From assembly GCF_022201045.2 (NCBI RefSeq), contig NC_068564.1:4154001-4218000 (forward strand): DNA of 64,000 bases, given 5' to 3'. Origin of the DNA: Citrus sinensis. Lineage: Eukaryota > Streptophyta > Magnoliopsida > Sapindales > Rutaceae. The position numbers and the translations under genes are program-made. The first letter of the stretch is position 1; each line of letters begins with the position of its first letter. Of this stretch, positions 20,893-63,885 are shown one piece after another. Under the pieces are notes generated by a model that had not been told where the DNA came from, did no database searches, and worked only from the letters and a program-made list of their open reading frames with translations.

Positions 20893-21213
20893 ATGGCCTC
20901 TAAGAGTTGCTTTGCTGCCTCTCCTCCTTCTTGTTATGCTTCTTCTGCCAAGCTCAGAATCTCTTGCTGAGCTTGGAAGCACTTTCAAGCTTTGTAATCC
21001 TGCTTCAGATCACTTGGATCAGCATGAAACTAGTTTTTTATTTGTTTATTTTGTTCAAGTAACACTGATCACACAACATTAATTTTTTGCACTGCTGTTT
21101 CAGGTAGACATGCCAGGGAACTTATGCAGCTTATTGATACGAGTCCTGGTGGAAGTAAACCAACCGATCGTCCCAGGAATTACAATTACGGAGTTCCTGA
21201 CAGCGGTACGTAA
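20893..21213 (+). pseudogene. Small secreted peptide family, member 1 (frameshifted)
   Basis: This is the leftmost member of the tandem family described at 33951. A TATAAG motif (20850) lies about 43 bp before the family-type start ATGGCCTCTAAG (20893). The hydrophobic leader (LLPLLLLVMLLLP) and the ELGS motif are in another frame from that ATG, so a one-base change between about 20896 and 20915 has separated the start from the signal peptide. The next in-frame ATG (20936) would keep only MLLLPSSES before AELGS. The donor after 20993 and exon 2 at 21104-21213 keep the family's phase-1 junction, and exon 2 still reads HAREL...DRPRNYNYGVPDSGT-stop. The 3' flank aligns with that of member 2. It is probably a recent pseudogene; a sequencing error or a rescue start at 20936 cannot be excluded. 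Confidence 0.6.
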
Positions 21214-21777
21214 ACCGATATTGTTAGTAATCTTTTGCTGAATGATCACCATCATGAGTATTTTATTGAAATTAAGCTTTATCTAATCTGTCTGTTTGAA
21301 ATGAATGCGAGAGCAAAGTTTTTTTCATCCATGGAGCTTATATATGCATCATATTATTAATATCATACAAGATGCCATTATATTTTCACAACAAAATTAA
21401 CATTTCAAAGGTCTACATAATTCCAAAATGTCCAGACTTTTTAATAAATTTTATTACAAAGTTCTGTCAAAAGAAAATTCTGGGTGCTTTCAGATCAACA
21501 CATGCTTGATCGAGTTCCTTAACTTCACACATCAGATGCTATTTTAAGCAAAAGCTTCCCAGTGCATCCATCATTTTAAGAAAAGCTAGCATATGTGCAC
21601 TGACACTACTTGGCATGTACTGAGAAGATTTAATTAAGTTAGAACAACATCAGTTGTTTTACAAAATAAAATAAAGATGTTTAAATGGGAAAGTGAAAAT
21701 GACCAATCTTAAGTTAAGCTCAAAACAGGGATGTCAAGATGAAACAAGTTAATAAATTGAGGGAGGGACATTACCTA

Positions 21778-24408
21778 TTAGCTTCTCAGCCGCCTCTTAA
21801 ATTTGGCCATCTTCACTGCTATCCAGGCATAGAGCTTACCTTCTACATTGTTCAAACACTGGAAAAAAGCATGTGTCCAATTCCTATTGAGCAGTAAGGT
21901 ACCACAAAATCCCAAAAAGCCTACGATGAAGCCAAGAGCTGTGGTAACAAATAAACCTCGAGTTATGAATCCAACCTCCTCACTGTTATGCACAATCATG
22001 CCTGTAACTTGTTGAGTAGGTTCCTCTCCAGGACATTTATTCGGAAGAGGGGAACCACAAAGCTCCGGATTTCACTTGTATGCAGAAGCCTCAAAAGTCT
22101 GTAGTCGAATGCTTGATGGAATTTTTCCGGAGAAGTTATTATTCGACAAGTTTACGACACCAAGATGACTCAACTGAGAAAAACTTCGTGGAATTTTACC
22201 AATGAGCTGATTTTGTGAAGAATCAAGGGAATTAAACAAAGATAACTGAGCAATCTTCAAAGGAATTGATCTAGTTAAATTGTTTTTCAAAGATTCACAG
22301 AGAGTAAACTAACAAGACTTGTAATTTCTTCTGGAATTTTTCCGGATAAATTGTTGTCTGAAAGGTCAATGCTCTTTGGAAGCCCCAAGGTAATTTTATA
22401 AATAGAGTCTATTGGTTTCCATACTAGCAATGCTCGGTCCTGATAATCAAATTCCGGGTCATCAATCAACTGAATTCTATATTCGACGATTACATTTGAA
22501 CTCCCATTTTGAACCATTGCAGATAAATTATTGAGACACGTTGGTACCATTCCTGAGATATTGTTGTGAGAAAAGTCCAAAACCTGAAGCATTGGTGAAC
22601 TGCAAAGTTTTGGAGTCGCACTTCCATTAATATGATTGAATCGTAACTGAGAACAACCAGTTCTAGTAGATTATCACCTATGCACCTTTCCTTTCAAGTG
22701 ATTGTAAGAGAGGTTTAAATGATATAAATAAGGAGATAAATCCCAAAACCAAGTGGGAACAATATCTGAAATTCCAGTATTGGAGATATCCAACAAAGAC
22801 TAATTATTTTTTACTTTGCAGCCATTTTGGAAAACGAGGTCCTAAATTACAATTTGACAAACTTACGAAACTCAAATGGAAAGGAAGAAACCAATCAGGA
22901 CTCAAATTGAGAGCCAATGAATTACAAGAAAACCCAAGATGGTCAATTTCGAGAGATTTGACATGTGAGCCTCAGAGATCATACCTTCCAAAGAATTTCC
23001 TTCCAGAGAGAGTCCCTCTAGCATGGAAAGGCGTCCCATGCCTTCACTAAGTGTTCCATTTAATCGATTGAACCCAAGTCAAGAATTCCCAGCAGAGGAA
23101 CCCAAAGTTGGTTGCTTTCCAAGTCCAACTCAACTAGTGATGAAGGTCGACAAAATTGTTTAGGGAAAGTACCATCCAGTCTGTTGGAAATATCCAATTC
23201 TTTTAAGGATTAAAACTCTGTAACGCCAGGTAATGACCCACTAAGCATGTTGTTCTGTAACATGAAGCTCTGCAATGACTTTTTGGCACAACCTGCAGAG
23301 AAATTGAGAAACAGCTCCGGCAGCTTTGCAGTAAGAATGTTGTCATGAATTTTTAATGTTTTTAGACAACACATATCTCCAAACGACTTTGGAATTCCAG
23401 TAATCTGATTCTTAGAGAGGTCAAGATCCATCAGAGAAGTCACGTTAGAAAAAGCATACTTCGGACGAACAAGGGTGATTGGAAGAGAGAACTTTGAAAT
23501 TCCAGTAATATAGTTCAGAGAGGTCAAGCTGGCAAGAGAGGTCATGTTCCGGAATGCATAGTCAGGAGTAGGACCTTGTAATTGGTTATTAGAAAGGTCA
23601 AGATAGACAAGACTCTTACTGATGTGGGACAAACAATGGTAAGCTGAATTTGAAAGACCACATAAAGAGAGATGAAGGTGTGTTAATGATGATGAAGAAG
23701 AATTTACCAAGGAATGGGATCGATAATTGATTTTTGGAGGAGCAGATGAAGATAAATCCAGTTCTCTGAGAGAAGGAAGTCCAGTGATTACTACTTGCAG
23801 CCAATCCGTTGCTTCCCTAAGGTCGAGACCCTGTAGGCTGAGGCTTGTTAATTTATTATGATAAGAAAGCCACTGATCAAATTTGCGGACACGGATGGCA
23901 TTCAATCCAATATTAATAGATTGCAAGTCTTCCAAGCTGATATGGAATCCTGCCTCCGAAATTTGCATCAGGGAGATCTAGGATTCTTTATTTGGTGAGG
24001 GAGGCAATGAACTCCAGGATTTGAGTTCCGCCAAAATCGTTGCCACTCAGGTGCAGATAATAGAAGTGCTCCAATACAAGCAGTGAAGAAGAAATGTTAC
24101 CTGACAAGTAATATGTTCTAAGATCGAGGGGCGACTGCATGGCTTGTTTGGTTACTACAGTAGACACCTCTCCATTTGCATCAATCTTCCATCCTTCCCC
24201 AAGAAGACAAATAGCCCCATTCATCTTCGAGACCTTGTTTGAAGATCAGTAGAGCTTGTCTCTCCCTCTCTATGCATCTGCTGTCAGCTTCTCCAAAGAC
24301 AGCAGCTCTTGTGTAAGCTACAAGTAAGAAAAGCAAATAAGAGACTCGTATCAAATTTCTTTGCTTCATCATTATCATAATAACATCAACCAAGACTGTG
24401 ATGATCAC
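21778..24408 (-). pseudogene. LRR receptor-like protein (EIX2-type RLP), broken
   Basis: In the intact family these are plasma-membrane receptors without a kinase that sense microbial or peptide ligands with SOBIR1/BAK1-type partners. Read on the minus strand from 24408 there is a signal peptide, the LRRNT motif [15 protein letters not shown], many LRR fragments (LxxLDLSxNxLxGxIP type), the C-terminal cap NPELCG...PLPNKCPG, an acidic juxtamembrane, one membrane helix (GLFVTTALGFIVGFLGF) and a short basic tail. Lesions include an in-frame TGA just after GRMED (near 24193), frame changes near 24140, 23980, 23210 and 22287, and a TGA at 22074-22072 where the family has glycine. The region 22593-23209 holds only scattered LRR pieces. 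Total span (about 875 codons) is near the family's usual 900-1000, so it decayed after arriving as a nearly full copy. Confidence 0.85.
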
Positions 24409-25542
24409 AGTACTGATTAGAAATGCTTACAGATTTATAATATACTATGTTTGCTAGATTTTATCTACCATATTTTTTTGGTCATTTTCTGGTGGTAACG
24501 TTACAGCTACGCAACCAAAATGGTTAATAACTGAAGGCTAGAGCTATTATTTCATCAGATTCAATTAAATGAAATAATAAAGAATACATCCAATGTTGTC
24601 TAATCCTGGACCCGCTGCGAAATAACTTGCATGTTCTTTACATTTGGCTTCTGTTGAAGCACTATCATTTTGTATGTGCTTCATATTTTGTCAACTGGCA
24701 GCAAGTCACTCTTGTTTACTCCATATCCGAGGTCCTTTGGCAGCGATCTCCTATTAATTTATAGTTTTGTAATTTAATTGTGTATTTTTATACTTCATTT
24801 TATTTTATCTTTAAAACCTTGTCATTGTGACCTATTGATATATGTATCATAAAGCAAGATTTTGGAACTTCCAAGCTATGTTCTTGGCAGTTTTGACGAA
24901 ATTTCGCTGCGTAGAGAGTTTGCCATTTTGGCCACTTTTTTTTTCCAATTTCAGGATTGAAACGGAGCGTACTTATATTTGTATTTTTTCGTACATGGTT
25001 GTCATTAAACCGCTATAAAACATATTTAAGATCATGGAAAATTAAATGATAAAAAGCGCTCAATATTTGCCATGTCAATGGCATGACTATTGCCTTTCTT
25101 ATATAGTTCGAGTTCAACGAAGTAGATTTTATTGTTTGAATCTAGAATAGCTTGACTAGGAAGAACTCATTGGCTGATTTATTTCCAGTGAGCTTTAATG
25201 GAGAGATTTGGCCAAACCCAAATATTCAACAACTCGGTTCGATCTGTTTTCGACCAAAGGAATTAGGCCAATTTTTTATTTTTACTTTTTTAATTTTGAC
25301 GTAAGTGAGGATTATGTGGGATTCAATAGTGGGTGCGGATAATCTCTTTGTTAATTTCGTTCCCCAAAAATTTTATACAGAGCCATTTGACAGCTGTTTT
25401 GTACGCTTGTGAGAAATTTGATGTTTAATTAGTTTAGTATTATCACCAGCTCTCTCGACCGAGCTCTGATCGGCTGCAAGAAAGACTTTGAATTTTAAGG
25501 ACTCTCTCCATGCAAGCAATTACTTAGTCTACACTTGGTTTT
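24409..25542. other. Intergenic spacer between RLP pseudogene and peptide member 2
   Basis: About 1.1 kb of AT-rich DNA holds the presumed upstream region of both flanking genes. No conserved reading frame, RNA gene or transposon end was recognised. Confidence 0.5.
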
Positions 25543-25550
25543 TATAAATA
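25543..25550 (+). promoter_or_regulatory. TATA box of peptide member 2
   Basis: TATAAATA lies 47 bp before the ATG at 25590. Members 1, 3 and 7 have a similar TATA motif 40-45 bp before their start, so the leaders are very short and the spacing is conserved in the family. Confidence 0.65.
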
Positions 25551-25589: not shown

Positions 25590-25916
25590 ATGGCCTTCAA
25601 GAATTTCTGGATTACTTGGTTGGCTCTTCTTGCTGTCGTTGTGCATCTTCTAACCTTAGAAGTGATTGCAAGGGAACTTGGAAGCAATGTCAAGTCTCGT
25701 AAGTCTTCTTTGCTTCATGTTATTTAGCATAAATTATGAGATATGCTATATTCAGGTAGTGACGATTGCTTAATTTCAGACTTCAATAGTTGTTAACATG
25801 AAATTTAACTTTTAATTGTTCTTGTAACATTGGCCACACATCATTTGTAAAACTGCATTGTTGTTTCAGGTGAACAGGCTCCTCCACGGGATTTCAATTA
25901 TGGCAGCCATACTTAA
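25590..25916 (+). CDS. Small secreted peptide family, member 2 (51 aa)
   Basis: Exons 25590-25698 and 25870-25916 join in phase 1 to 51 codons. Residues 1-26 form a signal peptide with a hydrophobic core (WLALLAVVVHLLTL). It is followed by the family motif IARELGSNVKS, an arginine codon split by the intron, and a short tail EQAPPRDFNYGSHT. The tail matches the last part of member 1 (RNYNYG) but lacks the second A-R-E-L motif of exon 2, so this is the shortest member. Its 3' flank aligns with that of member 1. I do not recognise the family; the length, signal peptide and small conserved C-terminal patch suggest a secreted signalling or defence peptide, which is an inference. Confidence 0.7.
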
Positions 25917-27281: not shown

Positions 27282-27854
27282 CTAATAGTTGCTTAAAATT
27301 ACAATCTTTCTTCTACCCTGGCGTTGACAAAATATTGCTTTGGCCTTATACTTCCGAGGGCATGAAGTATTCGTAGCCTTGTAAGTTGAAGCTCTTGGGG
27401 AATTATTATCACCAGCTCCTTGAGGCCGACAACAGCTACATGACTTCAGTTTCACTTTATTCAAACGAATCCGATTATCATAAGCTTTTCTTTTCTCAGG
27501 GTCTCTCAAAACGTCATTGGCTGATCTTATAAGCTTGAAAGCACCATCGGCGGCAACAGAGGAATTCTTGTCAGGATGTAACATCAGCGCCATTTTCTTG
27601 AACTGTTTCTTTATGACGCTAATATCAACTTGAGGATCAGTAATGACTAGAATTTTGTACAACGTAGATTTTGTTTCGGATAGTTGGTGAACTCTGTAAG
27701 CCGTGAAGTAATCGTCGATGTTGGGCAGATCAGGGTTGAATTCTTTGGCTGCTTTCAGAGTCCTGATCGCCATGTCTATGTTTTGAAGCTTGAAGTACTC
27801 TTCTGCGGCGTCTCTAGCCTTCTCGGCCGCTAGCTCGACAAGATTTTTGAGCAT
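27282..27854 (-). CDS. Short J-domain (DnaJ-like) protein, 190 aa
   Basis: A single-exon frame begins at the ATG ending at 27854. Residues 10-50 (EKARDAAEEYFKLQNIDMAI and following) resemble the helical N-terminus of the plant DnaJ proteins that carry a DUF3444 tail. Residues about 66-128 form a J domain with the catalytic HPD tripeptide (MLHPDKNSS), which stimulates Hsp70 ATPase. The last 60 residues are basic with a cysteine cluster (SCSCCRPQ) and lack DUF3444, so the protein is much shorter than typical relatives of 600 or more residues. It may be a truncated duplicate that is still open, or a genuine short form. It is the only intact gene on the minus strand between peptide members 2 and 3, and no link to them is evident. 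Confidence 0.8.
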   Translation of the reverse strand: MLKNLVELAAEKARDAAEEYFKLQNIDMAIRTLKAAKEFNPDLPNIDDYFTAYRVHQLSETKSTLYKILVITDPQVDISVIKKQFKKMALMLHPDKNSSVAADGAFKLIRSANDVLRDPEKRKAYDNRIRLNKVKLKSCSCCRPQGAGDNNSPRASTYKATNTSCPRKYKAKAIFCQRQGRRKIVILSNY

Positions 27855-28681: not shown

Positions 28682-29057
28682 ATGATGGCCTCCAAGAATC
28701 TTCTAACAGCTTTTGTATTCATCGTTCTTCTTATTGCGCTTCTTCTAGCAACCCCGGAAGTAGCTGCAATGGAACTGGGAAAAGCCTCCAAACCTTTCGA
28801 TAAGAATCCAAGTATTGATATATTCGTTGTTGGTTTTTTTTAACATATTAATATGATAATTAGTGCACTTAATTAGAAATTTTTTAATGAGGGTGGAAAC
28901 CCTCACGAGACAAACACTCCACAGTTAATAATAAGACGTATTAATTGGCTTTTCAGGCGGCCTAGCCAAAGAGATTATGAAGCTTACGCGTAGGGGTCTA
29001 TTATCTATAGATGATCCCAGGGGTCACAATAATGCTGTTCCAGGCAAGGGTAATTAA
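28682..29057 (+). CDS. Small secreted peptide family, member 3 (76 aa)
   Basis: Exons 28682-28811 and 28957-29057 join in phase 1 (AGC serine at the junction) to 76 codons. Two consecutive ATGs open the frame, and the second aligns with the MASK/MVSK start of other members. A signal peptide (AFVFIVLLIALLLATPEVAA) is followed by MELGKASKPFDKN. Exon 2 reads GLAKEIMKLTRR, which aligns with GHAREL, and ends with SIDDPRGHNNAVPGKGN. The D-D-P-R/Q-G-H-N-N core is shared with members 4-6, separated from the second motif by an extra 10 or so residues. An AATAAA follows at 29193 in a 3' flank similar to that of members 4-6. No disabling change is seen. The function is unknown. Confidence 0.72.
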
Positions 29058-33832: not shown

Positions 33833-33950
33833 AGGGCCTTAGCTTCAAGAAGCATGCAAGTAAATTGCACTCCGCTACATATGTTTTGTTTCCCAACAGC
33901 GCTGCTCTACGCCTTTACCCCAAACAAAAAGAAATAAAATAAAACAAAAA

Positions 33951-34324
33951 ATGGTCTCCAAGAACCACTTTTTATTTGCTTCAATGGCTCTCCTTATTGT
34001 TATTGGTCTTCTAATAACCTCAGAGGTGACTGCTGCAAGAGAACTTGGAGGGACCCCCAAGTCCAAGCCTTGTAATTACAATATGACTCGTAAGTCTGTG
34101 TTTTCTTCTTAGTTGTTCACATATTAAATATTAAAGTACGTAATCAGTAGAGTAGATTTGGTTAGGATTTGACCTTTTTGTGTCTTTTAATTTACTATTT
34201 TACCTATAATCTTGATCATCAGTAACATTGTATTGCTTTTTCAGGTGGACATGCTAGGGAGCTTGGGACAAGTGACGATCCTCAGGGTCACAATAACTAT
34301 CCTTTTAATCATGGCAGGCGTTAA
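33951..34324 (+). CDS. Small secreted peptide family, member 4 (72 aa)
   Basis: Exons 33951-34089 and 34245-34324 join in phase 1 to 72 codons. Residues 1-29 are a classic signal peptide (SMALLIVIGLLITSEVTA) with likely cleavage before ARELGGTPKSKPCNYNMTR. Exon 2 restarts with the same motif, GHARELGTS, then DDPQGHNNYPFNHGRR-stop. The mature peptide of about 43 residues has a single cysteine, so it is not a disulfide-rich defensin. The leader resembles that of plant glycine-rich proteins (SSEVAARELAE type, from memory), but there is no glycine-rich tail. The C-terminal D-D-P-Q-G-H-N-N patch shared with member 3 is a candidate for the active peptide. AATAAA follows at 34522. The upstream TATA position holds only TACATAT (33876). 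I recognise no known peptide-hormone family. Confidence 0.78.
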
Positions 34325-36570: not shown

Positions 36571-36688
36571 AGGGCCTTAGCTTCAAGAAGCATGCAAGTA
36601 AATTGCACTCCGCTACATATGTTTTGTTTCCCAACAGCGCTGCTCTACGCCTTTACCCCAAACAAAAAGAAATAAAATAAAACAAAAA

Positions 36689-37062
36689 ATGGTCTCCAAG
36701 AACCACTTTTTATTTGCTTCAATGGCTCTCCTTATTGTTATTGGTCTTCTAATAACCTCAGAGGTGACTGCTGCAAGAGAACTTGGAGGGACCCCCAAGT
36801 CCAAGCCTTGTAATTACAATATGACTCGTAAGTCTGTGTTTTCTTCTTAGTTGTTCACATATTAAATATTAAAGTACGTAATCAGTAGAGTAGATTTGGT
36901 TAGGATTTGACCTTTTTGTGTCTTTTAATTTACTATTTTACCTATAATCTTGATCATCAGTAACATTGTATTGCTTTTTCAGGTGGACATGCTAGGGAGC
37001 TTGGGACAAGTGACGATCCTCAGGGTCACAATAACTATCCTTTTAATCATGGCAGGCGTTAA
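36689..37062 (+). CDS. Small secreted peptide family, member 5 (72 aa)
   Basis: Exons 36689-36827 and 36983-37062 are identical in coding sequence to member 4, intron phase included. Signal peptide, ARELGG motif, second GHARELGTS motif and DDPQGHNN tail are unchanged. The proximal upstream sequence has TACATAT, as in member 4. It differs from member 4 mainly in upstream repeat number and in the SINE inserted about 330 bp after the stop. Confidence 0.78.
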
Positions 37063-40431: not shown

Positions 40432-40805
40432 ATGGTCTCCAAGAACCACTTTTTATTTGCTTCAATGGCTCTCCTTATTGTTATTGGTCTTCTAATAACC
40501 TCGGAGGTGACTGCTGCAAGAGAACTTGGAGGGACCCCCAAGTCCAAGCCTTGTAATTACAATATGACTCGTAAGTCCGTGTTTTCTTCTTAGTTGTTCA
40601 CATATTAAATATTAAAGTACGTAATTAGTAGAGTAGATTTGGTTAGGTTTTGACCTTTTTGTGTCTTTTAATTTACTATTTTACCTATAATCTTGATCAT
40701 CAGTAACATTGTATTGCTTTTTCAGGTGGACATGCTAGGGAGCTTGGGACAAGTGACGATCCTCAGGGTCACAATAACTATCCTTTTAATCATGGCAGGC
40801 GTTAA
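40432..40805 (+). CDS. Small secreted peptide family, member 6 (72 aa)
   Basis: Exons 40432-40570 and 40726-40805 encode the same 72-residue protein as members 4 and 5, with one synonymous change (TCG for TCA in the ITSEV segment). The upstream region was rebuilt by a 971-bp hAT insertion and the 3' flank is interrupted 115 bp after the stop by a 10.5-kb CACTA, which displaces the AATAAA signal to 51581. Purely by context this copy may have altered expression or 3' end formation. Confidence 0.75.
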
Positions 40806-41291
40806 CTCCTTTAAGAGGGTCTTCTGATGAATACATGATGTATAATTATTGTTGGTAAGAATGTTATAATATTATGCACTATATGAATCAAAATAAGAGT
40901 GAGAGGAATCCTCTTGCTTCCACTAAAAGAAAAAGTGCCTACTATGACAGGCAAAAACTGTCATAGTAGGGGGTGGATGACGGTTGTTCATACCGTCATT
41001 GTAGCCACCGTCAAGAATTGATGACAGAACAATACCAGTCATAATCTGTGACAGATATTACTAGGTACATAACTGTCATAACTTTATTTAGAGGGGAATA
41101 TAATAAATTTGAATTTTACTCTTTTTTTTTTAAATTTGTGTGCCATATTTTGAATTTTTGTCGGGAAAATTAAATTTGGCACGAAATGCAAATTATAATT
41201 AAATGAATTTTTTCAATTAAATTAAAAATTGAAATTATAATTAATAAAAAATGGGTATTTTTGTTGCACCATGAAATTATTATTATTTTAA

Positions 41292-41708
41292 GGAAAATTA
41301 TCATTCGTATACCCTATATTTGCTTTGTTATAAAAAATACTACAACACTTTGAGGGTGTATCAATCGTCCACCCTTAGTTGACAAAATATATTAGCTGAC
41401 CACCAAACCGTTAGTTGCCGTTTGAAAGTTAACGGAATTACAGTGAATTGACGATTTTACCCTTGAAAATTATCACATGTATACCCTTAAATTCTCTTTT
41501 TATCACTTGTATACCCTTAAATTATCACTTGTATCATATGAAAAGACCAAATTACCCTTCTGACGTCATCATACTTAAATGGCAACTAACGGTTTGGTGG
41601 TCAGCTGATACATTTTGTCAACTTAGGGTGGACGATTGATACACCCTCAAAGTGTTGTAGTATTTTTGATAATGGAGTAAACTAAGGGTATACAAATGAT
41701 AATTTCCC
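41292..41708. mobile_element. Mutator-type MITE (417 bp) nested in the CACTA element
   Basis: The ends (GGAAAATTATCATTCGTATA, and GGGAAATTATCATTTGTATA reversed) continue as long inverted repeats of about 140 bp with few mismatches. TTATTTTAA flanks both sides (41283-41291 and 41709-41717), a 9-bp duplication. There is no coding capacity. Confidence 0.88.
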
Positions 41709-42455
41709 TTATTTTAATAACAATCTTGCAATTGATTTAGTAGAAATTAATATTTCATAAATTAGCTAATTAATTAGATTATTAAAATTAATATTGCAAT
41801 TAAAAATTCACTTACAAAGAAAATGAAATGGATAACATTGACTAAGATTTCATAATTGTCAGCAAACATAATTTAATCAAATTCGAGAGTGACAAGTCCA
41901 ACATAAATAGAAGAAGAGTATTGTAACAACCTAAGAATTAAATTCCAGCAACATGTACAACACAAATGAACCATGATCAGTTCAATTCCAGTAGCATAAG
42001 GAAGCCAACAACAGAGTCATTTCTACCAACATGAACAAAGGCAACAACATAGTTCATTTCTAGCAACACTTCCAACAACATAAGAGGAGCCAAAAATACT
42101 GATCAGACAAGGCCAGCAGTTCCCAAACGTGAAAATCCAACCTAAGAACAAACGAAATGTGTAAAATTGCATTAATATCCAGGAGCTATTTTCCAAACAA
42201 AGAAAAAAACTAGCCAACTCCAGCAGTGCCCACGATCTTCATCATAATCCAACATAGAAGTATAATAAGCTAGATAACTGCCCAAGTAAAATATAGGTAG
42301 TAAATTAATTTATTTCATCAATGAACTCACAATAACAACATAATAGGTAAGGGTTACCTCACATAACAGCAAGTACTCCAGAAAAATAGTTTGCCCACTC
42401 AATACGGACTTCATCTAATTCAGCATCGGAATATGTTGTCTTTCCGTTGAACTAT

Positions 42456-45400
42456 TTATGAAAAATAAATATTTAGTGAAACTTTGAAACAGGACATGTT
42501 CTTTTTTATGAAGCAAATTATGATCAAGGAACTCACATTGTTCATTAGTAAAGAGAAGTCATTAATTAAGTCTTTCATGAATCTCATGACGTAAAATCCA
42601 CACACGACTGAACTTGCTGGTTGCTGTGGGACCTGTTCACAATCAACAATTGTACAGTTCATTTTAATAACAATTAAGCATGGTAATATATAATTATAGT
42701 TAAGGTAATAGTTCAAACCTTTACGGATCTGACCATCTTATTATAATTCCATTTCTCCTTACCCTCTTGTGCTATAAACATTGTCATAGAGCTGTATACC
42801 AAAAAAAAAAAAAATGTAACAAAGTATCTGTAAAGTATGTAAAAGTAATTTTATATTGACAATGGTAATAAAAAAAATTGAACATACACTTTAATGAGCT
42901 CTTTTAAATCATCATCAGGATCTCCCCCATAAGAATCGAGATAATAAACTTCTTTTTTCAACACATCAAAGATGACCAGCACCCAATGATAACTATAATA
43001 AAGAAAGAACATTAAGGTGGCAATTTCAGTAAATTAAGGCAAGAAAAGAAATTAATACGAGTTGAAAAGTATTAAAGGAGTATACTAGGGATTATAAGGC
43101 ATAAAGATGAATTGTGCCTTCTTCGCTTTTTTCAATCGATCACAAACTCCACGTGCCCTAAGGTCAAATGATGCAGTAGGATTACGTTCTTCGCCTAGTG
43201 AAACCAGACCTGGACGAACGAATCCAAATGGTTTCACTCCTATTTTTCCAGGGAGAATAGAAGCATATAACATCCTGATAAACAATAGACAAACAATGTT
43301 AAAGTCTATTAATTGGGACTCCCATAAAAAGTACACATAAAACTAGAATGATTATGAATCACTTACGCAATATAGACTTCGATTACGTTTACTCCTATAG
43401 CATCCATTGACAGAACTGCACTGCAGTCACGCCTTCCAATATGAGCTCTAATCCCTTCCAAATGGAAAACACCATCATCCAGTAGATATGGAATCCATTC
43501 TTGGTCTGACATCTTAGCTTCACACATTGTGCCAAACAACTGCAGCAACGGAATCTTGTTTTGTTGTACTCCTCCTGCATGCCTTGTGTTCCTCCTTGTT
43601 GGCAAAAGCTTCACTGCAACTTTTTTGCCCTCGTCCTTGGTCTGTTTTACAGCATCTGTATGTCCTATCTCTATTATATCATTATGTTGTTCTGCTGATT
43701 CAAAGTTCAAAATTTTTTTGTGCCTTGATGTTTAGGGTTGCCATTTTTTTTCCCTGTAACAAATCATCAGGCATCTCCACTAGGATTTTAGTTGGGTTCA
43801 ATCTTGGACTCTTTCTTGCAATGACAGAGAGTTTTTTGGTAGGTGTATCCTTGTTTTTGTTTGCTATGTCTGTCTCTTTCTTAGAGTTTACTATTGGCTG
43901 GTTCATACCTATTGTGTTTTTAGGTGTCCCTTGCTTCTTTTTTTTCAAATGATCAGGCTGCTACAAATATAATTTTTCAGTGTGATTGGCATAAATAGTT
44001 TCTAAATACTCTAAATTTATCTTACAAAGTAGTTAACAGTATCAAATGACACCCTAGAAAGAACATATGTGTAAATAGTAAACATACAGCAAACTAAATC
44101 CACAAACAACAGGTAAGAACAGTAACTACAACAACCCTTATCCAGCAAAAAACTAAATCTAGAAATAATAAGAAAAAAAAAGTAAACAAACTGACCTTTG
44201 CTATTTCAGCAACTGTTTCAGCTTGAGCGGACTCTCTATGTCATCATCTCCAACAACATTATTGTTTTCACCAGGCATGCAAGGGTAACTGGAACTTGCT
44301 ATATCTGAATGACGAGGTGTTTTTCTTAGTTCATTTCTCATTTCTTCCAACTGCCGGTTAATTGATTCCCTCCATAGACGGTCCTCTTTTTGCCTGTCTC
44401 TATCAGCAGGGCTCTGGCAAGTTTGAAAATACAGAGACGAGGTCACAAACTTGCCCACTCCTTGCATATGACCACATTTTGGAGCTTTCCCCAAAGATTG
44501 TGCGAGAATATCATTTTTTCCGGATGACTGCATCTTTCCTTTCTTAGCTTTCATCTCCAGTTTATCCTACCATACAAATGAATTAAGTAAGCTAATGTTA
44601 TCAAAGTATAAGTAATCACAACTAGAATTACAGTAGTAAGCAAAAAATTTCTTATGATTTTTTTAATAACTGGTTCAACATCGGGGTGGTATCCTCCATT
44701 TTTCATTTGCCGAGCTCTCTTCCAAAGAACACTCCTGTCCACTTCTTCTTCAGTAAAGCCTGTTTTTTAGCATTGTAAAAAATTTAATAAAAAATTAAAA
44801 TGTTAGTAACAATCATTATTTGCATTAACCAAACAACAGTTAAATGTTAGCAACTAACTCACAGTACATACTACTTCCTGCATTAACCCAACGTAACCTT
44901 TTCTACTTAGGCGATGATTAAACTTGTTTTGTACCCGCCTAAGTTTATTCACACCACTAACTTTCTGTTCAAAACAACCAAACAAACAATGGATAAACAC
45001 ATAAGGAAAAATGTCATAAGCATTGATATATTATTAACACTTGAATTAGACATTCACTTGAAATTTTTCAGATAGTCTTTCCTTTACAAACTTAATCCAA
45101 CTTTCCTTATCAATTGTGTTGTACCGTGCTGGTGGCTTGAAAAGCCTTTTATGGTCATTAACAAATGGTAAAACATAGTTCCTCATTAGAGTGTATTTAA
45201 AGTTCCGAAATGCAGCTCCGATGGCTTGTAGTACTTGCTTCCTACTTCGAGGATGAACCACGAAGTACACCCTCAAGTTTCATTCTCAAAATGTGAGATT
45301 TTTCAGATTTTTCTAGCAACAATAAAACTAGAGTAATCATCTTAAGAAAATTATTTTATACCTTAACAGACTCCCATAGACGCTCCTTCGTATCATCTGG

Positions 45401-45811
45401 AACTCTACGCCAATCGTTGTAGAGGATTGGAATTGATGTACGAGCCAAAACACCAATATACGTAGCCAGCTCAATGGCTTCTTCACCAACTAGAACACCA
45501 AGGCTGTTGTATTTAACCACAAACCTTCCACTTCTTATCTTCTTTTTGTTTTGTTATGACCCAACAGTGCCACCTCTGCTTCGCTTACTGCTGCTCTCAG
45601 GTTCATCCTCGTTCCCATCTCCAAACTCATCAAGATCAGGGACATGATCGGCCAGGGGCGTTTTAGGATCATATCCTTCGACGATAAGTGCCTCATGGTA
45701 CTCTGATTCCTCACCAACAAATCCATAATTTTGTTCATCTAAAAACTCATCGAAATGGGCATTAGATTGCTCAGGTGAAGAAATCTCAGGGACATTTTTT
45801 CCCTTATCCAT
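42456..45811 (-). pseudogene. CACTA TNPA-like (Transposase_24) protein with Ulp1/C48 peptidase domain, degenerate
   Basis: The reading starts at MDKGKNVPEISSP (ATG ending at 45811) and continues through several exons. The segment around 45550-45360 (RSGRFVVKYNSLGVLVG ... IPILYNDWRRVP) and the following RRVQNKF and LWKRARQMKNGGY pieces are typical of plant En/Spm TNPA-like proteins. Downstream, YHWVLVIFD (His at 42988-42986), YYLDSYGG (Asp near 42937) and QQPASSVVCGFYVM (Gln, then Cys at 42602-42600) give the His-Asp-Gln-Cys order of Ulp1-type deSUMOylating peptidases. Lesions include an in-frame TAA at 45556-45554, and frames that do not join cleanly between 44201 and 43948. Intron limits are only approximate. 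Ulp1 domains carried by plant transposons are known from KI-MULEs; their role is not established. Confidence 0.72.
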
Positions 45812-45995
45812 GATGAATATCACAACTGCAGAACAAAATCAAATGATGAGAATACATTACCATATAAAAACTGCCAAAAAATATAAAATAAAATAATAAC
45901 AGATAACACAAAATACTTCTTGTATTAACCTTAACATATATCATTTTGAGAAGGACTCAACAAACGGTTCATGCAAACAAACACATAAACGATAT

Positions 45996-48900
45996 TCAAG
46001 GTCCAATCCAAATTCTTTCTTTGTTGTCTCGTGCGTACATTGCAACATCATCGTCAATAGAGTTTATGTTATCAGCACTTGGAAATTCAGTAGTCAACGA
46101 AGGGTATTCTACTGCATCTTCGCTTCTTTGTGTGGGTTTACCTCTTCTAGGCATTTGGCATACAACTGACCACTTCTTATCAAGCTGATCAGGTACATAA
46201 AAAACTTGGTTGGCTTGAGAAACTAAAATAAATAGATCAGATTTATGGCCCATTCGTTGCAAGTCTACCAAAGTAAATCCGAGTCTATCATTCATAACAC
46301 CACTTCTAGTATGTACCCAGTCACACTTCATTATTGGAATTCTAAAGATAACATAATATAGATCCCAAATCTCTCTAATCACTCCATAGTATGTGATGTT
46401 AGAAGTGACATGATTTTTATCTTTTGAACTTGCGACTAAAATTGTTTGTGCAACCAATGACACTCCACTATTTTGAGTAACTCTGTTTAAGTCTCGATCT
46501 GTTATAACAAAGTGAAAACCATTTATGTCATATCCAGGATATTGGAAAACATAAGGACGAGGCCCTTGGGATAACCAACGGATTGTTTGAGTAACAACGT
46601 GACCGTTCTCTATCAACATATTTACCTATTATTAATCGACATGAATATAATGTTAAATAAGCACAAACCGAAACATAAAGGAAAAAAGGAATTAATTAAA
46701 CTAATGTTATCAAAACCTTATCTGTTAGCCAATCTGCAAATGTTCGGTTGTGTTCATCTTGCAACCACTTCTCATTTTTTCGTGGATGGCAAAGTTGTAA
46801 CCAATCCTCATGCTCTCTAAAAATCAGTTAAAAAGAAAAAAATTTCAGGTTCCTAAACTACCAAAACCTGACAAATATAAAGCTAAAATAACACAAGTTA
46901 GATAACATCACCTTATATAAGGCTGAACTTCCTCAGTGTTATGCAAAATATACAAGTGTACTTGATCTAATTAAGTTCGATCAACTTCCACCATTTGTCC
47001 ACCACTCATGGGCTTGTCAATTTCTAAATTCTGCACATGTCCAGGTGGAACCCCAATTGTGGGCATGTTTTCCAAGTATTCTGCACAAAATTCTAATGCT
47101 TCCTCGACAATATAACTCTCCACTATGCAACCCTTAGGATAGTTACGGTTTCGAACATAACCTTTTAGAGTTTTCATGTATCGCTCAAAAGAATACATCC
47201 ATCGAAAATATACGGGACCATATTTTCTAACTTCACTCATTAAGTGAATAGTAAGATGAACCATTATGTTAAAAAAAGAAGGGGGAAAACATTTTTCAAG
47301 CAAGCACAAAGTCTCTACGATGTTTTTCTCCAATTCATCTAGCATTGTCACGTCAATCACAGTCACACACAACGAATTAAAGAAGAAACAAAACCTAATG
47401 ATAGCTTCTTTGACATGTTTGGGCAACACACACCTTACGGCAATTGGCAAAAGTTGTTGCATAAGAACATAATAGTCATGGGACTTAAGACCCTAGAGTT
47501 TGAAGTCTTTTTTTGACACAAGATTCCTAATATTTGAAGAGTATCCAGTAGGAACCTTGATACTTTTCAAAGCTGCACAGAATCTTGCTTTTTCCTCCTT
47601 AGTTAAGGTATGGCAAGCAGGAGGAAGCCATGTACGATTGTTGTTTCCTTTAACTTGTGGTGCTAAGGTGGGCCTAATTTTCATTTCCAAGAGATCCATC
47701 CTCGACTTCAGTCCATCTTTGGACTTTCCAGGAATATGCAGCAGTGTACCGTAGATGTTCTCACACACATTCTTTTCAATGTGCATAACATCTAATTGAT
47801 GCCGCACAAGCAAGTGCTTCCAATACTCTAAATTATAAAATATAGATTTCTTCTTCCACCACACGAGATTATCATTGTTCGCACTTTTACGCTTTTTACT
47901 ATTGCTTTTCCCCCATCTATTATCAATAGAGTCGACCAACTGGAAAATTCCCTCCCCGTTTAACAGTTTTGGAGGGGTTTCATCACACACACTATTGTCA
48001 AAGGCTTTTGCTTGGAACCGAAATTTATGACCATGAGGAAGCCAAAGCCGATGGCCAATGTATACATTTTTTCCACTGTGTTTAAGTCTACATTTTGGTG
48101 TTCCTACACCACAATATGGGCAGGCATAATATCCTTTAACAGTACATCCTGCTAAATTTCCGTATACCAGGAAGTCATTTATTGTCCATAGTAATACAAC
48201 CCGCAAATTAAAGTACTCATTTTTGTAGGCATCATATGCCTCCACCCCAACATCCCATAAAGTTTGCAAATCCTCAATAAGAGGTTGCAAATACACATCA
48301 ATGTCTAAACCCGGTTGTTGAGGACCAGAAATCAAGAATACAACATCATGAATTTTCGTTTCATGCACAACCATGGTGGAAGATTATAAGTAATAAGAAT
48401 TATTGGCCAGCAGCTATATGTACTACTAAGAGAGCTATGTGGATTGATTCCATCAGCTGATAGAGTTAGGCGAAGGTTTCTAGGATCGGATGCAAAGATC
48501 AACCATTTCTCATCTACTAACTTCCAAGATGGTAAGTCAGCCGAATGTCGGAGTTTACCATCAACCATCCTCTCATTTGCATGCCAACTCAAGTCCCTAG
48601 CAGTTTCGGATGACTGAAACATGCGCTTAAACCTAGGTATAGGAGGAAAATACCATAAAGTTTTTGCAGGAACCCCTTTCTTATATTGGTCTACAGTACC
48701 ATCATTTTTCTTCCATCTACATAACCCACAAGTAGGATATTCAAAAAGACCTTCATACTCTTTTCTGTAGAGTATGCAATCATTTGGGCAAGTATGAATT
48801 TTAACATATTCTAAGCCCAAAGCTGACATTGTCTTTTTGGCCTCATACATAGAGGTTGGAATTTCATTATTTTCAGGGAAAGCATCTGCTAAAACACTTA

Positions 48901-49389
48901 ACAATGCAGAAACGCTACTGTCAGACCACCCAAATCTACCCTTCACATTGAACAATTTCACTAAAAAGGATAACTTAGTAAATTTGTGCATCCTAGGTAC
49001 AAGGGTTTCTCAACATGTTCTAGTAACTCTTTGAATGCTTTAGGGTCCCCACAACAACCCTTATAAGCATCATTAATCATTTTTAACTTATTACCATTGT
49101 TAAACTCTATATTTTGTTGCTGAAAATGGTTTTCTCTTTGAGGAGAAGGACTCTTACGAATCTCTTCCCCGTGCCAAAACCAATTGTCGTATTTCACATC
49201 AAAACCATGCATATATAAATGATCTTTTACAGTTGTAGGTGTTTCAAATGATAAATTCCCACAATCAAGGCATGGACACCTAATGACGCTACTGCCTCCA
49301 GTATTTTTTATAGCAAAATTTATAAATTTCTGGACACCCTCTTCATATTCTGTCGACAGTCGATTACGTTGAATCCAAGATTTATTCAT
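45996..49389 (-). pseudogene. TNP2-like CACTA transposase, degenerate
   Basis: This is the main transposase type of En/Spm elements. From MNKSWIQRNRLSTEYEEG (ATG ending at 49389) it shows a transposase-associated domain with a CPCLDCGN zinc motif, the Transposase_21 core (LSADGINPHSSLSSTYSCWP), the QLDVMHIEKNVCENIYG segment, the DUF4218-type region (ERYMKTLKGYVRNR) and a C-terminal DUF4216-type block (45996-46625). Two introns near 46911-46817 and 46716-46626 fit GT-AG. At least four lesions are visible: a one-base loss near 48985, a frame change near 48335, TAG at 47495-47493 and TAA at 46973-46971. The catalytic core is therefore unlikely to be made. Confidence 0.85.
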
Positions 49390-51461
49390 TTTTGGCTTAA
49401 TAATTAATGTTCCTGACATATACATAAAACAAAGAAAGAATATACATACTTAGAATATTTGTCTAATGTTACAACACCATGTGAAATAAACAAAGTTAAA
49501 CCTACATGAGGCCTTTCAAATTAAACACAATTTGGCCCATATAGTTTTCTCTTTTATATTAAAAGAACAACTTACTTTACGGAAAAGCATGGTCATGCTC
49601 CATAAACAAATTTTAAAATTACAAATATAGCAACCAAGAAAGCTGATAAATTGAATTTCATACTTTTCAAAAGTTCACTCTCCTACTATACTATAAATAT
49701 AATAAATAAGACAGACCCCACAACAAACACATTACATAGTATCATAATTATAAATTTAAAGATATGTAAATTTTATATGTAAATTTTAAGCAAGTGTATA
49801 ACAACTTAAAAAAGTCAAATAATAGAGGATAAGAAATGGAACTTACTAGATTAAACACAACAATCTACTGTTATATCCAATTCCAGGTACAAATCCAGCA
49901 ACAATATTGATTACTGAAATATATTTTGAATGATCAGTTGATAAAATTCCAAAACTTGGATTCAAGAGGGCTAAAAAGGTACCAATAAATTACATTAATC
50001 ATATGAGTAAGCCTAAGAAGAAATAATAAACTACAACTTCAAATAATATACGTCAGTAGAACAAAAATGAAAGCAAACACAAAGAAAAGCTTCAAGTACC
50101 TTAATACAATGCCTTCAACAAATCAAGAACATCGAATTGTCACGTTTATGCAGCAATCACAACTATTTATATTTGACACGCAAATGTTACGACTCAAGAC
50201 AACAATAACAACAACAATACCACCAGATGCAAAATAGCTACAACACCACATGCATAGGTAGATGACAATGAGAGGTGAGAATCCCTCAATTTTACATAAC
50301 AGAATCAGTTACTAAGAATCCCTCCTCAGGCTTTGTTATAGACATTTCAGGCTAATATCACCATCTTCATACACTAACACTCATTTAACTTAACGAAGCT
50401 TCAATATCAGAAATGGCTAGAAAAAAAATTCACACACAAACACATGAATATAAATCAGAATTACCTAGAATAAAAAAAAAATAATAACATTATGCAATGC
50501 ACGATTACAACTCAAAACAGAGCTCAAAATTAACAACATTATATCTTCCTGAGAAATTATTTAGTAAATTGATTACCGAAATATATGCAATACATGCAAA
50601 TACATTTCAATTTTTTACAAATTATTTACTACTTTACATAAAAGTTGAATAAATAGTCAAAATTAAATACATGCAAATGCAGCAATGACTCACCAGTGGG
50701 TGTGAAGCTTCAATTCACCGTCAAGCCTATGGTTTCAACTTCGGCAACAATGATTTGGGTCTTCTTTCACGGTAAGCGATTGGGTTTCTTTTAGTCAATA
50801 AAAGTACCCTGGATGTTATTCTCATTCCAATTTGGGTTTCGATTAGCACTGACTTCATCCCAGCAAAGAGAGACGATTCAGTGAAACAACCAGAACGATT
50901 TTGAAAGTATGGGTGTTTGGGTGTCGTTAGTTTGCTATGGTCGGCCTTTGAGGGTTTGCTGCAAGTGTGCTAATCGATTTTGAGATTCCACAATAACGCT
51001 TGCAAATTTTCTGAACACTTAGAAAAAAATTTCCCTCTTTTCTCATAAAAATGTTTCCCCCTTTACAAAACGCAACGTTTTATTAATTGTTTTTTGTTAT
51101 TTACATTTCTGTTTTCCAAAAACTTGCGAAACATACAACTGAGACGGCATCGTTTCACTTCTATTTTAGTAATATAATATTTTTAAAAATTAAGTCAAAC
51201 CCGCGTAATTAAAATCAACATAAAAAATCAGTCTTTCATTCTTGATAGCCAAATAATTTATCACCAGTCTAGCATAGTTTCTTGATATATGATATTTATA
51301 TCACCAATATATCATAATTTCTTGATAAACGATATTTCTATCACAACTATGTCATAAGTGTATGAAAGAAACTAAATCTATCACGATTCTATTGTTGTAG
51401 GCCTCCAGACCAAAAACTGTCACACAGAGGACTGTCATAGTATGTACTTTTTCTTGTAGTG
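49390..51461. other. Non-coding end of the 10.5-kb CACTA
   Basis: This is AT-rich sequence between the start of the TNP2-like gene and the right terminus, probably the transposon promoter and subterminal region. Around 50700-50970 it is less AT-rich and resembles a leader. No gene is supported. Confidence 0.6.
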
Positions 51462-59750: not shown

Positions 59751-62700
59751 TAGGGGTGTTCAGAATCCGATCCGATCCGTTCAATCCGTCTGATCCGCAA
59801 AAATCCGATCCGTATAAATCTGATCCGTGGATTGGTGGATTGGATTGGATTGGATTGAAATTTTAAAAATCCACAGTCGGTGGATTGGATATGGATTTAC
59901 TTCTGTGAATCCGCAAAAATCCGTGAATCCGCAAAAAAAAATATTTATTTATTTATTTTAAAAAATATTATAAATATAATATTACATAATTATATAAACA
60001 CTATAATTTAATTTAGTCATTATTTAATAAAATTATAAAACAAAAAATATTAAATTAATAATTAAAAAAATTAAAGTAAAGTAAAGTTATTAAGTAAAGT
60101 AACATAACAATCATTATCTAATAAAAAAAATAAAAAATATGAAATCGGTCAAAAATTATTGAAATAAAGTCAAAAGTTAAAGCTTTTGTCAAAAAAAAAA
60201 AAATAACAATGACATAAAGTAGATAACGCCAAAAGCAACTAGCATTAGCAATTTAGCATAACCCAAAATCGCAAATCAGTGGTCACTCTGCAAACGAAAA
60301 AAAAACCCTAAGCTGCTTCCTGCTTCCTTGCCATCATAGTCACACGCACAATATCGACGAGTATTATTAAATCTTATCATGGTGTGTCTATCTCCTTCTT
60401 TAGGTACAGTACTCGTAAATATTCTCCTAATTTATTATTTTGATTTTATCTTCGATAACATTTATTCTGATTTTTTTTAATTATTATTATGTATCTTCTT
60501 TTTTATCAATGGTGACTTGAGATAATGATTTTGATATTCTTTTATTAATAATAAGGTTGTTGGGGATTGAGGAAGAGAATTATTTGTTGATTATATGTCC
60601 TAATTTGGTTGCTTTTGCTTTTTATTCTGTGGTAAAATTGAATCTGTTAATTTCTTGTTTGATGGGCTATTTTTTTAAAAAATGAAGATTAAAGAATTGT
60701 TGTTGGGGGTGTTTGAATCATGTTGCTTCTGTGGATCTAACAATCATATTACTTTTTCTGGATGTAACACGCGAATTTCATGATTTTTCTTTTTGGTGGT
60801 GTAGATGACTTCTCAATTTGATAAAGGAAAACGCGTAGCTGTAGATTCAACCCCCCCAAGTTCTAAATCATCCAGTAATGCTGAAGGTACGCCCAATAAA
60901 TCCACTACTTCAGAAGCTTGGGAGCATTTTATCCAATTAAGTTCTGATCCACTGCATCCTAGATCCAAATGTCGATATTGTGGAAAAGAATATAAATGTG
61001 GTTTTCATAAAGGAACATCTAATTTATTGGGTCATATAAGAGAGAGATGTCTAAAATATCCTGGTCGAGCTCGAGTGGACAAAAAACAAAAAACTTTGTC
61101 TTACCAACCAGTGAAAATTGGAGAGCCATGTAGCCTTGTATCAACGACATATAATGTTGAGGCTTGTAGGGAAGCAATTGCTAAGTTTGTTATAAAAGAT
61201 GAGATGTCATTTAGAGTTGTAGAGGGTGAAGGGTTTAGGGAAATGTTGGGAGTTTTTGAAAATAGATTTAAAGTACCATCTCGCACTACTATTGCTCGTG
61301 ATATTTTGCAACTTTACAAAAAAACAAAGAAAGATTTGACTGATTTTTTTGTTAGTAGTCATCAAAGAGTTTGCCTCACTACAGACACATGGACTTCAGC
61401 TCAAAATCTTTGTTATATGTGTCTTACAGCTCACTTTATTGATGATAATTGGACATTGCACAAAAAAATATTGAATTTTTGTCAAGTTGCTGACCATAAA
61501 GGTGAAACAATTGGTAGGCAAATTGAAACATGCCTATTAGATTGGGGTATTGAGAGAGTTTTTACAGTACGGTTGATAATGCTTCTTCTAATGATGGTGT
61601 TGTCTTTTATTTGTCAAAAGTTGTGAACAATTGGAATAGTGCAATTTTAGGGGGTCAAAATATGCATTTGAGGTGTAGTGCACATATATTAAATCTCATT
61701 GTTGCAGAAGGGTTAAAAGAGTATCATCAGTCGATTTCTAAAATTCGCAATGTTGTAAGATTTATTAGATCTTCGCCTTCTAGGACACAAAAGTTTAAGG
61801 CATATGCAGAGCGAGAGAAAATTTCTTCAAATAAGTTGTTGTGTTTAGATGTCGTAACTAGATGGAATTCCACTTTTTTCATGTTAGAGGCTGCTGAAAA
61901 GTATGAAAAAGTATTTGATCGGTTAGAGCTTCATGATGCACAATACATACGTGAGTTTTGTTTGAGCGAGCCAAAAACGTGTCCTTTGTCAATTGATTGG
62001 GAATATGCTCGTTATTTCATTAAATTCTTGAAGGTTTTTCATGATGCCACTTTGACATTTTCGGGTTCTTTATATGTGACCTCCAATAATTTTTTGCGCC
62101 AATTATGTTTGATTCATACACAATTGCAAGCTTGGAGGGATAGTAAGGATTTATTTTTGAAGATAATGGCTGAAAATATGAAAAAGAAGTATGATAAGTA
62201 TTGGGGAAATTATGAAACAATCAACCCTTACTTGTTTGTTTCTATTTTGCTTGAGCCTCGACATAAAGAACGGTTTTTGAGATATTGTTTTGTAATGTTG
62301 TTTGGTGAATTTAAAGCTAATGAGTTGGTTGTTAAAGTGCGGAATAATTTACATAGTTTATATGAGGAATACAAATTACTTTATGGTGATGATGTGGAAG
62401 TAATGGATGCTGTCAATGATGAAAAAGATTTAGAGGTTGATACTGAGGTTGATGCTAGGCAAATGTTTGATTTGGGTTATATGAGGATTTTAAAAGACAA
62501 CATTTTTGTAGAGTGCAAAACAGAAGTGGATCTTTACTTGTTAGAATCATGTGAGAACCCAGAAAATGAGAGTTTTAATGTTTTAGATTGGTGGAAGATT
62601 AATTCTTCCAAATATCCAATTTTGTCTTATGTTGCTCGAGATATTTTGGCCATGCCTGTTTCTACTGTGGCATCTGAGTCAGCATTTAGCACTGGTGGGC

Positions 62701-63701
62701 GTGTTCTTGATCCACATCGGTGCTCACTATCTACAAGGACGGTGGAGGCATTAATTTGCACACAAAATTGGCTACGTTCAACTCTGATAAATTTTGATGA
62801 AGCAATAGATGAGATTGAACATATTGAGACAGGTAAAATGTAACAATTTACCTTTAATTTTATTTTTTGATTATTATTTGACTTTATGTTGTTATTCTAT
62901 TTTAAAAATTGACATTTTTCTTATCTTATACGTATAGAGATTTTGGGAGCTGACAAGAACATATTTGATGAAGCTTGATGGCATTTGATGTGATATAAGG
63001 GTAAATATTTATTAATTTATTTATTAAATAATTTATTTATTTAATAATTTTTTATTTGTTATTTATATCAATTATGTTTATTTTGTTTAGGCTAAAATAC
63101 GAAACACAAATTGGAGGTGGAAGTTTTTCCTTTTGGTGTGTTTTATTTTGAGTCTTTCAATGTATTATTGTGGCTTTATTTGAGCAATTAATTTTGATAT
63201 TATATTAATATATTATTGTAATTTTATTTGAACAATTAATTTTGGTATGTTATGTTTTAAAACTTTAAACGTATTATTATAGTTTTATTTAAACAATTAA
63301 TCACGATGTGTTATATTTTGAAATTTTGAATGTATTATTAAAACAAACAATTAATTTGTTTAAATTTTATTTAATTTTAAATTTAATTGGTAGTAAAATT
63401 ATTTTATATTAGATTTTTTTTATTTCATTAGTTTATAGATTGAAGAGAACTAAAATTTTTAATTCGCAAATCAATTCGTAAAATGATGGATTTGGATATG
63501 GATTGAGTCAAATCCGCATCCGATCCGCAGACATATGGATTGAGTCAAATCCGCATCCGATCCGCAGATGTATGGATTGGATATGGATTGAATTTTATCA
63601 ATCCGTGGATTGGATTGGATTGAAAAATTATAATCCGCAAAATCATGGATCGGATATGGATTGATGTCCAATCCGTAAAATCCGATCCGCGAACACCCCT
63701 A
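59751..63701. mobile_element. Nearly complete hAT transposon (3951 bp)
   Basis: The ends TAGGGGTGTTCAGAATCCG and CCGCGAACACCCCTA are inverted repeats. ATATATTG flanks both sides perfectly (59743-59750 and 63702-63709). Dense subterminal motifs (GATCCG/CGGATC and GGATTGGATT) occupy the first 200 and last 250 bp, as expected of transposase-binding arrays. It contains one transposase gene with a single frameshift. The right end lies about 70 bp before the start of peptide member 7. Confidence 0.95.
60805..62843 (+). pseudogene. hAT transposase (BED zinc finger, RICESLEEPER-like), one frameshift
   Basis: The frame from ATG 60805 has a BED finger (C56, C59, H77, C82), the LTTDTWTS segment and, after a one-base loss between about 61566 and 61571, continues in the next frame to 62843. 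That part has the VDNASSND segment, LRCSAHILNLIV, LDVVTRWNSTFFML, a DUF4413-like region and the C-terminal hAT dimerisation domain (ILAMPVSTVASESAFSTGGR). Together these are about 680 codons, the normal size. GTGTAG directly before the ATG looks like a splice acceptor, so a 5' UTR intron is likely. A GT-AG intron (62834-62937) could alternatively replace the last codons with EILGADKNIFDEA ending at 62978. Apart from the frameshift no lesion was seen. Confidence 0.88.
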
Positions 63702-63730
63702 ATATATTGCATACGTATTTGGCTTCCATA

Positions 63731-63740
63731 TATTTATAAA
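63731..63740 (+). promoter_or_regulatory. TATA box of peptide member 7
   Basis: TATTTATAAA lies 41 bp before the ATG at 63772, the same spacing as in members 1-3. The hAT right end is 30 bp upstream of it. Confidence 0.55.
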
Positions 63741-63771
63741 ACCTGTGCCCTATAGCTACACACGCTTCTTC

Positions 63772-63885
63772 ATGGCACCCAAATCTGTGTAATTTCTTGT
63801 ATTCTTCTATTCTTTATAATGTTTCTCCTGATATTGGAAATCGATTCAAGGGAACCTAGCCACAGTACCAAATCCTATATTACTC
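63772..63885 (+). pseudogene. Small secreted peptide family, member 7 (degenerate exon 1; exon 2 beyond window)
   Basis: ATGGCACCCAAATCTGTGTAA aligns with the family start (MASK/MVSK) but stops after six codons. Further on, an in-frame block from ATG 63819 reads MFLLILEIDSREPSHSTKS and YITR, matching the LEVIARELGSNVKSR and ARELGG...NYNMTR region of members 2 and 4. It meets a GTAAGC donor at 63886 in the family's phase 1. The hydrophobic leader between is out of frame. Exon 2 would lie to the right of 64000. It is probably a pseudogene; a short product from 63819 is less likely because it would have almost no signal peptide. Confidence 0.55.

Follow-up and report, generated by a model that had tools for sequence, protein, structure and literature searches.

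The soybean peptides GmPep914 and GmPep890 have the sequences DHPRGGNY and DLPRGGNY (PMC7730307) and form, according to PMC4621407, the C-terminal ends of precursors of 52 amino acids. In PMC6547358, these precursors are described as being without an obvious N-terminal signal sequence, and several reviews name no way by which the peptides leave the cell (PMC13157962, PMC8591736, PMC6547358). PMC13157962 further calls them lineage-specific to soybean and their receptors unidentified, and in one study GmPep914/890 gave no protection in Arabidopsis (PMC7225342). A second system is provided by the poplar clusters of leucine-rich-repeat (LRR) receptor-like proteins (LRR-RLPs), which, as stated in PMC3975113, include small orphan genes and in which RISP and its LRR-RLP have a common promoter region. 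Poplar RISP, which reportedly both inhibits a rust fungus and causes an alkalinisation of cells, is in its mature form a cationic, cysteine-rich protein with four cysteines (PMC4756128 and PMC7472956). Clustered antifungal phytocytokines and receptors are attributed to Lintz 2024 in the review PMC13157962. Here, these systems are compared to a tandem array of small genes in a 64,000-nucleotide stretch of Citrus sinensis DNA (NC_068564.1, C9:4154001-4218000; the whole stretch analysed is referred to as the window), which code for a family of small, predicted secreted proteins.

The window contains a tandem array of seven copies on the + strand, each with the same two-exon layout, and an eighth copy is located outside the window, 2.9 kb past its end. 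Six of the eight copies (members 2-6 and 8) can be read without interruption from the ATG to the stop codon once a single phase-1 intron with GT..AG borders is removed. The introns of these intact members have a length of 145-181 nt, the exons of the intact copies in the window (members 2-6) comprise 47-139 nt, and the precursors of the intact copies 51-75 amino acids. The copies are the following.

20893..21213, + strand, member 1, a copy that is probably broken; in the frame of the hydrophobic stretch, exon 1 spans about 20894-20993, followed by the intron 20994-21103 and by exon 2 at 21104-21213, which codes for CRHARELMQLIDTSPGGSKPTDRPRNYNYGVPDSGT; the ATG at 20893 is out of frame.
25590..25916, + strand, member 2, intact, 51 amino acids; exon 1 25590-25698, intron 25699-25869, exon 2 25870-25916; C-terminal end REQAPPRDFNYGSHT.
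28685..29057, + strand, member 3, intact, 75 amino acids; exon 1 28685-28811, intron 28812-28956, exon 2 28957-29057; C-terminal end SIDDPRGHNNAVPGKGN.
33951..34324, + strand, member 4, intact, 72 amino acids; exon 1 33951-34089, intron 34090-34244, exon 2 34245-34324; C-terminal end TSDDPQGHNNYPFNHGRR.
36689..37062, + strand, member 5, intact; exon 1 36689-36827, exon 2 36983-37062; coding sequence equal to that of member 4.
40432..40805, + strand, member 6, intact, with exon 1 at 40432-40570 and exon 2 at 40726-40805; differs from member 4 by a single synonymous change.
63772..63885, + strand, exon 1 of member 7, probably a broken copy; its ATG at 63772 and the hydrophobic stretch are in different frames.
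L011:21-70, outside the window, exon 2 of member 7, coding for RRELPGEPDDPWNHHY.
L011:2888-3257, outside the window, member 8, intact, 62 amino acids; exon 1 ends at L011:2978 and exon 2 starts at L011:3160.

The splice layout of members 1 and 7 is that of the other copies; translation from their out-of-frame ATG ends after 25 and 6 residues, respectively. Members 4 and 5 are the same in both coding sequence and intron, and the proteins of members 4, 5 and 6 are identical. Because of this identity, and of the single synonymous base in member 6, the seven loci of the window represent five distinct sequences. Members 4, 5 and 6 lie within repeat units spaced about 2.7-3.7 kb apart. An earlier note, based on the letters of this stretch, had described seven two-exon genes. 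The seven + strand loci were found where it had placed them; the gene count is not supported, because two leaders are broken and three copies are near-identical. The family of small, predicted secreted proteins is itself real, and two of its seven window copies look broken. The introns 25699-25869, 28812-28956 and 34090-34244 proved to be exact, with GT..AG borders in phase 1, and the TATA boxes announced for members 1, 2, 3 and 7 at about 40 bp before the ATG begin, counted by eye, 37-47 bp upstream of it. Exon sizes of 47-139 nt apply to the intact copies in the window. The secretion-type leader ascribed to all seven is present in members 2-6 and looks broken in members 1 and 7; a short second exon exists in all seven, with that of member 7 located beyond the window.

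A degenerate copy, the ninth, whose ATG is located at L016:2062, is similar on the DNA level to member 8 (z 15.0), member 2 (z 14.2) and member 1 (z 5.2), and more weakly to member 4 (z 3.7) and member 3 (z 1.8). Protein and pattern searches of the C. sinensis genome (299.7 Mb on 11 contigs) revealed no convincing family member beyond the cluster; one extra match, on C8, has an E value of 4.28 and contains two stops. These searches are low in sensitivity, with known paralogues of the cluster being missed and the exon-2 pattern recovering three of the eight copies. The family size is therefore a lower bound, and a confinement to the cluster is not established.

Between divergent copies the exons are alike and the introns mostly unlike. 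When the 15 pairs of the six distinct copies were scored against shuffles, exon-1 DNA gave z>3 in 12 pairs, with all three misses involving member 7, and intron DNA in a single pair. On the protein level, exon 2 exceeded composition shuffles at p<0.05 in seven of the 15 pairs, the remaining eight being individually not significant; the significant pairs join all six distinct members, via members 1, 3 and 4. The proportion of synonymous differences (pS 0.39-0.77) was higher than that of nonsynonymous differences (pN 0.23-0.47) in all 12 exon comparisons between pairs of copies, a result biased in its own favour by the protein-guided alignment. Upstream regions reached z>3 in seven of the 15 pairs, two of them due to A-rich runs, and a long upstream block is common to members 3 and 8 only (z 16.7). 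For members 4 and 6, one of 219 coding bases differs, compared to 41 of 1282 non-coding bases from the intron, the upstream region and the displaced 3' flank (Fisher one-sided p 0.010), with gene conversion as an alternative cause of the low coding difference.

As read from the sequence, the leaders of members 2, 3, 4 and 8 have a strongly hydrophobic core and contain A-x-A-like sites. PF07172, a family of glycine-rich proteins, was the top Pfam match of these members (E 0.28, 0.12, 0.1 and 0.0011, respectively), with scores of 12.3-19.9 bits, all of them under the curated cut-off of 30 bits; in the Pfam scan of member 7, no PF07172 match was obtained. Since PF07172 may be matched through the signal-peptide part alone, as a published warning in PMC2912341 states, the gene structure was compared. 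A PF07172 family search of the C. sinensis genome yielded 22 places, ten of which were inspected as sequence and six modelled by eye, namely the glycine-rich L024, L025, L030 and L031 and the short L027 and L036. All six modelled genes have an exon 1 of 109-115 nt followed by a phase-1 intron. With a shuffle keeping hydrophobic and polar positions, the leaders of the intact members 2, 3, 4 and 8 reached z>3 in 15 of 20 comparisons to five glycine-rich-type leaders, with a maximum of 7.9; an unrelated receptor-kinase leader, which as a single control is few, gave 0 of 5 and a maximum of 1.5. Because of these z values and the matching phase-1 intron, the leader-intron cassette is probably common by descent with glycine-rich-protein genes. 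For exon 2, no relationship to the glycine tails could be demonstrated: the six exon-2 sequences compared to four such tails gave z>3 in just one of 24 comparisons (member 1 with the tail of L030, z 3.8), and descent of exon 2 from them was rejected.

L027 (C3:36750209) and L036 (C3:30139960) form a second short two-exon set with the same leader and phase-1 intron as the family, whose payload differs from that of the cluster (AEANAVGCPYHRP...GCPP-type); judged from the viewed sequence, L042 (C3:29767120) probably belongs to this set. The mature parts of the proteins in the cluster are short and probably disordered. Weak Pfam matches to Conotoxin, chi-conotoxin, Sar8_2 and others (E 0.05-0.35) were taken as signal-peptide-driven chance, and the single match of a PDB profile search, a designed protein at E 0.98, was likewise taken as chance.

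Exon 2 typically opens with a G-H-A-R-E-L-like segment and closes with a D-x-P-R-G-x-N-Y-like block, of which the variants IDDPRGHNN, SDDPQGHNN, TDRPRNYNY, APPRDFNY, SAARGGYNY and PDDPWNHHY occur, the last one in member 7, which ends there. The block was compared to a panel of 18 plant peptides, with the sequences of GmPep914/890 taken from PMC7730307. For the exon-2 set as a whole, GmPep890 ranked first (summed z 5.84) and GmPep914 second (5.5); members 1 and 3 alone gave z 3.2-4.0 with the soybean peptides, and members 4, 7 and 8 lower values (0.9-2.5). Identity to the eight-residue core D[HL]PRGGNY amounts to 5/8 for members 1 and 3, 4/8 for members 2 and 4 and 3/8 for members 7 and 8, and the summed identities of 24, for paralogues that are not independent, compare to a shuffle mean of 14.8 and were reached by 0 of 50000 shuffles. 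Among the 18 peptides, the C-terminal block is closest to GmPep890/GmPep914, with family membership not established. A text search of the literature for five C-terminal strings, taken from the family or from GmPep914, gave a single paper, in which the soybean peptides are printed, and none of the titles listed for Pep914/890 points to citrus or to a secreted homologue. The C-terminal strings quoted in the earlier note are correct, and the similarity it had seen between them exceeds chance in the exon-2 pairs counted above. Its remark that the leader recalls glycine-rich proteins agrees with the leaders and the intron phase found in the genome, as does the absence of a glycine-rich tail with the exon-2 sequences; its limit of one cysteine holds for the mature parts, all members having at most one cysteine after the leader. 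Its statement that no known peptide family is matched holds only in part: the two soybean peptides, which rank closest, were absent from its list.

With a probability of roughly 40%, the cluster codes for tandemly amplified secreted phytocytokine precursors working like GmPep914. In favour of this are the open frames with a common phase-1 intron in six of eight copies, the similarity of exons as opposed to introns, the excess of pS over pN, the low coding difference of members 4 and 6, the hydrophobic leader and its matches to glycine-rich-type leaders, the first two ranks of the soybean peptides, and an LRR-RLP relic within the cluster. Exon 1 would provide a signal peptide at the N-terminus, together with an AREL-type leader as in glycine-rich-protein genes, and exon 2 a short payload. 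The sequence features predict secretion of the precursor, after which a protease would free a C-terminal peptide around the D-x-P-R-G-[HY]-N-[NY] block. This peptide may act as a phytocytokine in the apoplast and be perceived by an LRR receptor, as is thought for GmPep914/890. Tandem duplication and decay of copies, as observed in the array, would represent the birth-and-death turnover usual for defence-type signals, and the peptide may have a role in defence. Rather doubtful is the wider proposal of a secreted phytocytokine family outside legumes, in which the GmPep914/890 ligand pattern is placed on the leader-plus-payload cassette of glycine-rich proteins and a single conserved secretion exon is reused within one genome for several short payloads unrelated to each other.

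Several observations weigh against precursors of the GmPep914 type. The soybean precursors have no obvious signal sequence, in contrast to the signal-type leader of the family, and the soybean peptide is located at the extreme C-terminus, whereas here only member 7 ends at the block and 4-9 residues follow it in members 1, 2, 3, 4 and 8; because of the leader and these additional residues, the family was not filed as GmPep914. In no member does the identity to GmPep914 exceed 5/8. CLV3 ranked third of the 18 peptides, with a z of 3.66 reached by 0 of 2000 shuffles. Among six control 8-mers, an RGF-like string gave p 0.001, one gave p 0.024 and four were above 0.09. Since paralogues are not independent, the summed z is overstated, and the resemblance is a lead, not a proof. 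The leaders of members 1 and 7 gave z>3 in 0 of 10 comparisons to glycine-rich leaders. The LRR-RLP sequence within the cluster is a relic, and a promoter common to it and the peptide genes was rejected, with upstream similarities at z -1.0 to 0.8 in six of six comparisons. This relic is described as follows.

21760..24380, - strand, relic of an LRR receptor-like protein, located between members 1 and 2, with LRR matches; ends set by eye.

No full-length open frame is present in the relic, and its LRRs are found in the longest stretches between stop codons, at 22290-22670 and 23213-23977. When two pieces of the relic were used to search 264 kb, two additional relics were identified, upstream of member 1 at distances of 47 and 69 kb, and no intact copy. 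The position of the relic resembles the poplar clusters (PMC3975113), and the proteins are of a small secreted type that is lineage-restricted as far as the searches reach, which would suit secreted antimicrobial or host-defence peptides clustered with LRR-RLPs, like poplar RISP. The low number of cysteines, compared to the four of RISP, and the lack of promoter similarity to the LRR-RLP make such a role unlikely; the parallel to the poplar clusters is weak, and a single relic could be a coincidence. A family of CLE-like ligands whose core has diverged would be consistent with the rank of CLV3 and with the end of member 7. It is very unlikely, however, as two other CLE peptides rank lower (TDIF, next after CLV3, z 2.15; CLE25 z 1.24), the order G-P-D-P-x-H is absent from members 2 and 4, and the Pfam scans returned no match to a CLE model. 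The CLE core is R-x-V-P-x-G-P-[DN]-P-x-H-[HN], and none of the family members has it when searched by eye.

The rank of PF07172 as top Pfam match, the phase-1 intron in all modelled genes of that type and the resemblance of member 1 exon 2 to the L030 tail would also fit shortened wall or apoplastic proteins of the glycine-rich type, which have lost the glycine tail and are structural or non-signalling. This is somewhat unlikely, since the four matches remain below the cut-off of a model that a signal peptide alone can match, the exon-2 comparisons to the tails are negative in all but one case, and the C-terminal block is kept between copies with dissimilar introns. An array that is decaying, without function and maintained by recent duplication alone would explain the broken appearance of members 1, 7 and 9 and the recent copies 4-6. 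For six of eight copies, however, the frame is open with matched splice sites, and members 4 and 6 have diverged less in their coding bases than in the adjacent non-coding ones, which makes such an array quite improbable.

The surroundings of the array contain a number of repeats and other genes. A transposon is inserted in the repeat unit of member 6, so that the original 3' flank of this member is now found at 51462.

40921..51461, no strand assigned, CACTA-type element of 10.5 kb with CACTA...TAGTG ends, a 3-bp TTC flank on both sides, and Transposase_21 and DUF4216 inside.

Tandem repeats of 217 bp are located upstream of members 4, 5 and 6, at 33143-33876, 36098-36614 and 39087-39386 of the window. 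Two long open stretches that overlap each other (60805-62843) directly precede member 7 and look like a hAT-type transposase. On the minus strand, a small intronless gene for a DnaJ-domain protein occupies 27285-27857, in the interval from member 2 to member 3, and open stretches at 9334-11803 belong to an SMC-type ATPase gene (SMC_N match). About 100 kb from the cluster, two similar open stretches of 854 codons are present in L020-L021 (window-relative 169237-171798 and 177522-180083), the first of which is an LRR receptor kinase, presumably resembling MIK2/MDIS1-type kinases.

Genes with such short exons are easily overlooked by annotation. If the family works like GmPep914, a secreted family with the soybean ligand pattern would provide natural variants for receptor screens and would hint at a wider recognition of the D-x-P-R-G-x-N-Y motif. 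If the resemblance is due to chance, an ordinary lineage-restricted family of small secreted proteins would remain.

In comparison to known systems, the family has in common with the PF07172 glycine-rich proteins an M-x-S-K start, a hydrophobic core and an EV-x-AREL leader end followed by a phase-1 intron, and differs from them in the lack of the glycine-rich tail and in scores below the curated cut-off. As in the poplar RISP/LRR-RLP clusters, small proteins of a secreted type adjoin an LRR-RLP sequence, whereas RISP has four cysteines, compared to at most one in the mature parts here, and the poplar pair has a common promoter, compared to an LRR-RLP relic only and no common promoter found here. 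Member 7 shows a P-D-D-P-x-x-H-H-like end as in the CLE peptides (CLV3); in the other members, spacing and core residues differ from these. With GmPep914/890, the family shares the short C-terminal D-x-P-R-G-x-N-Y pattern and a small precursor, of 51-75 amino acids here and 52 in soybean, and by analogy it may work like GmPep914.

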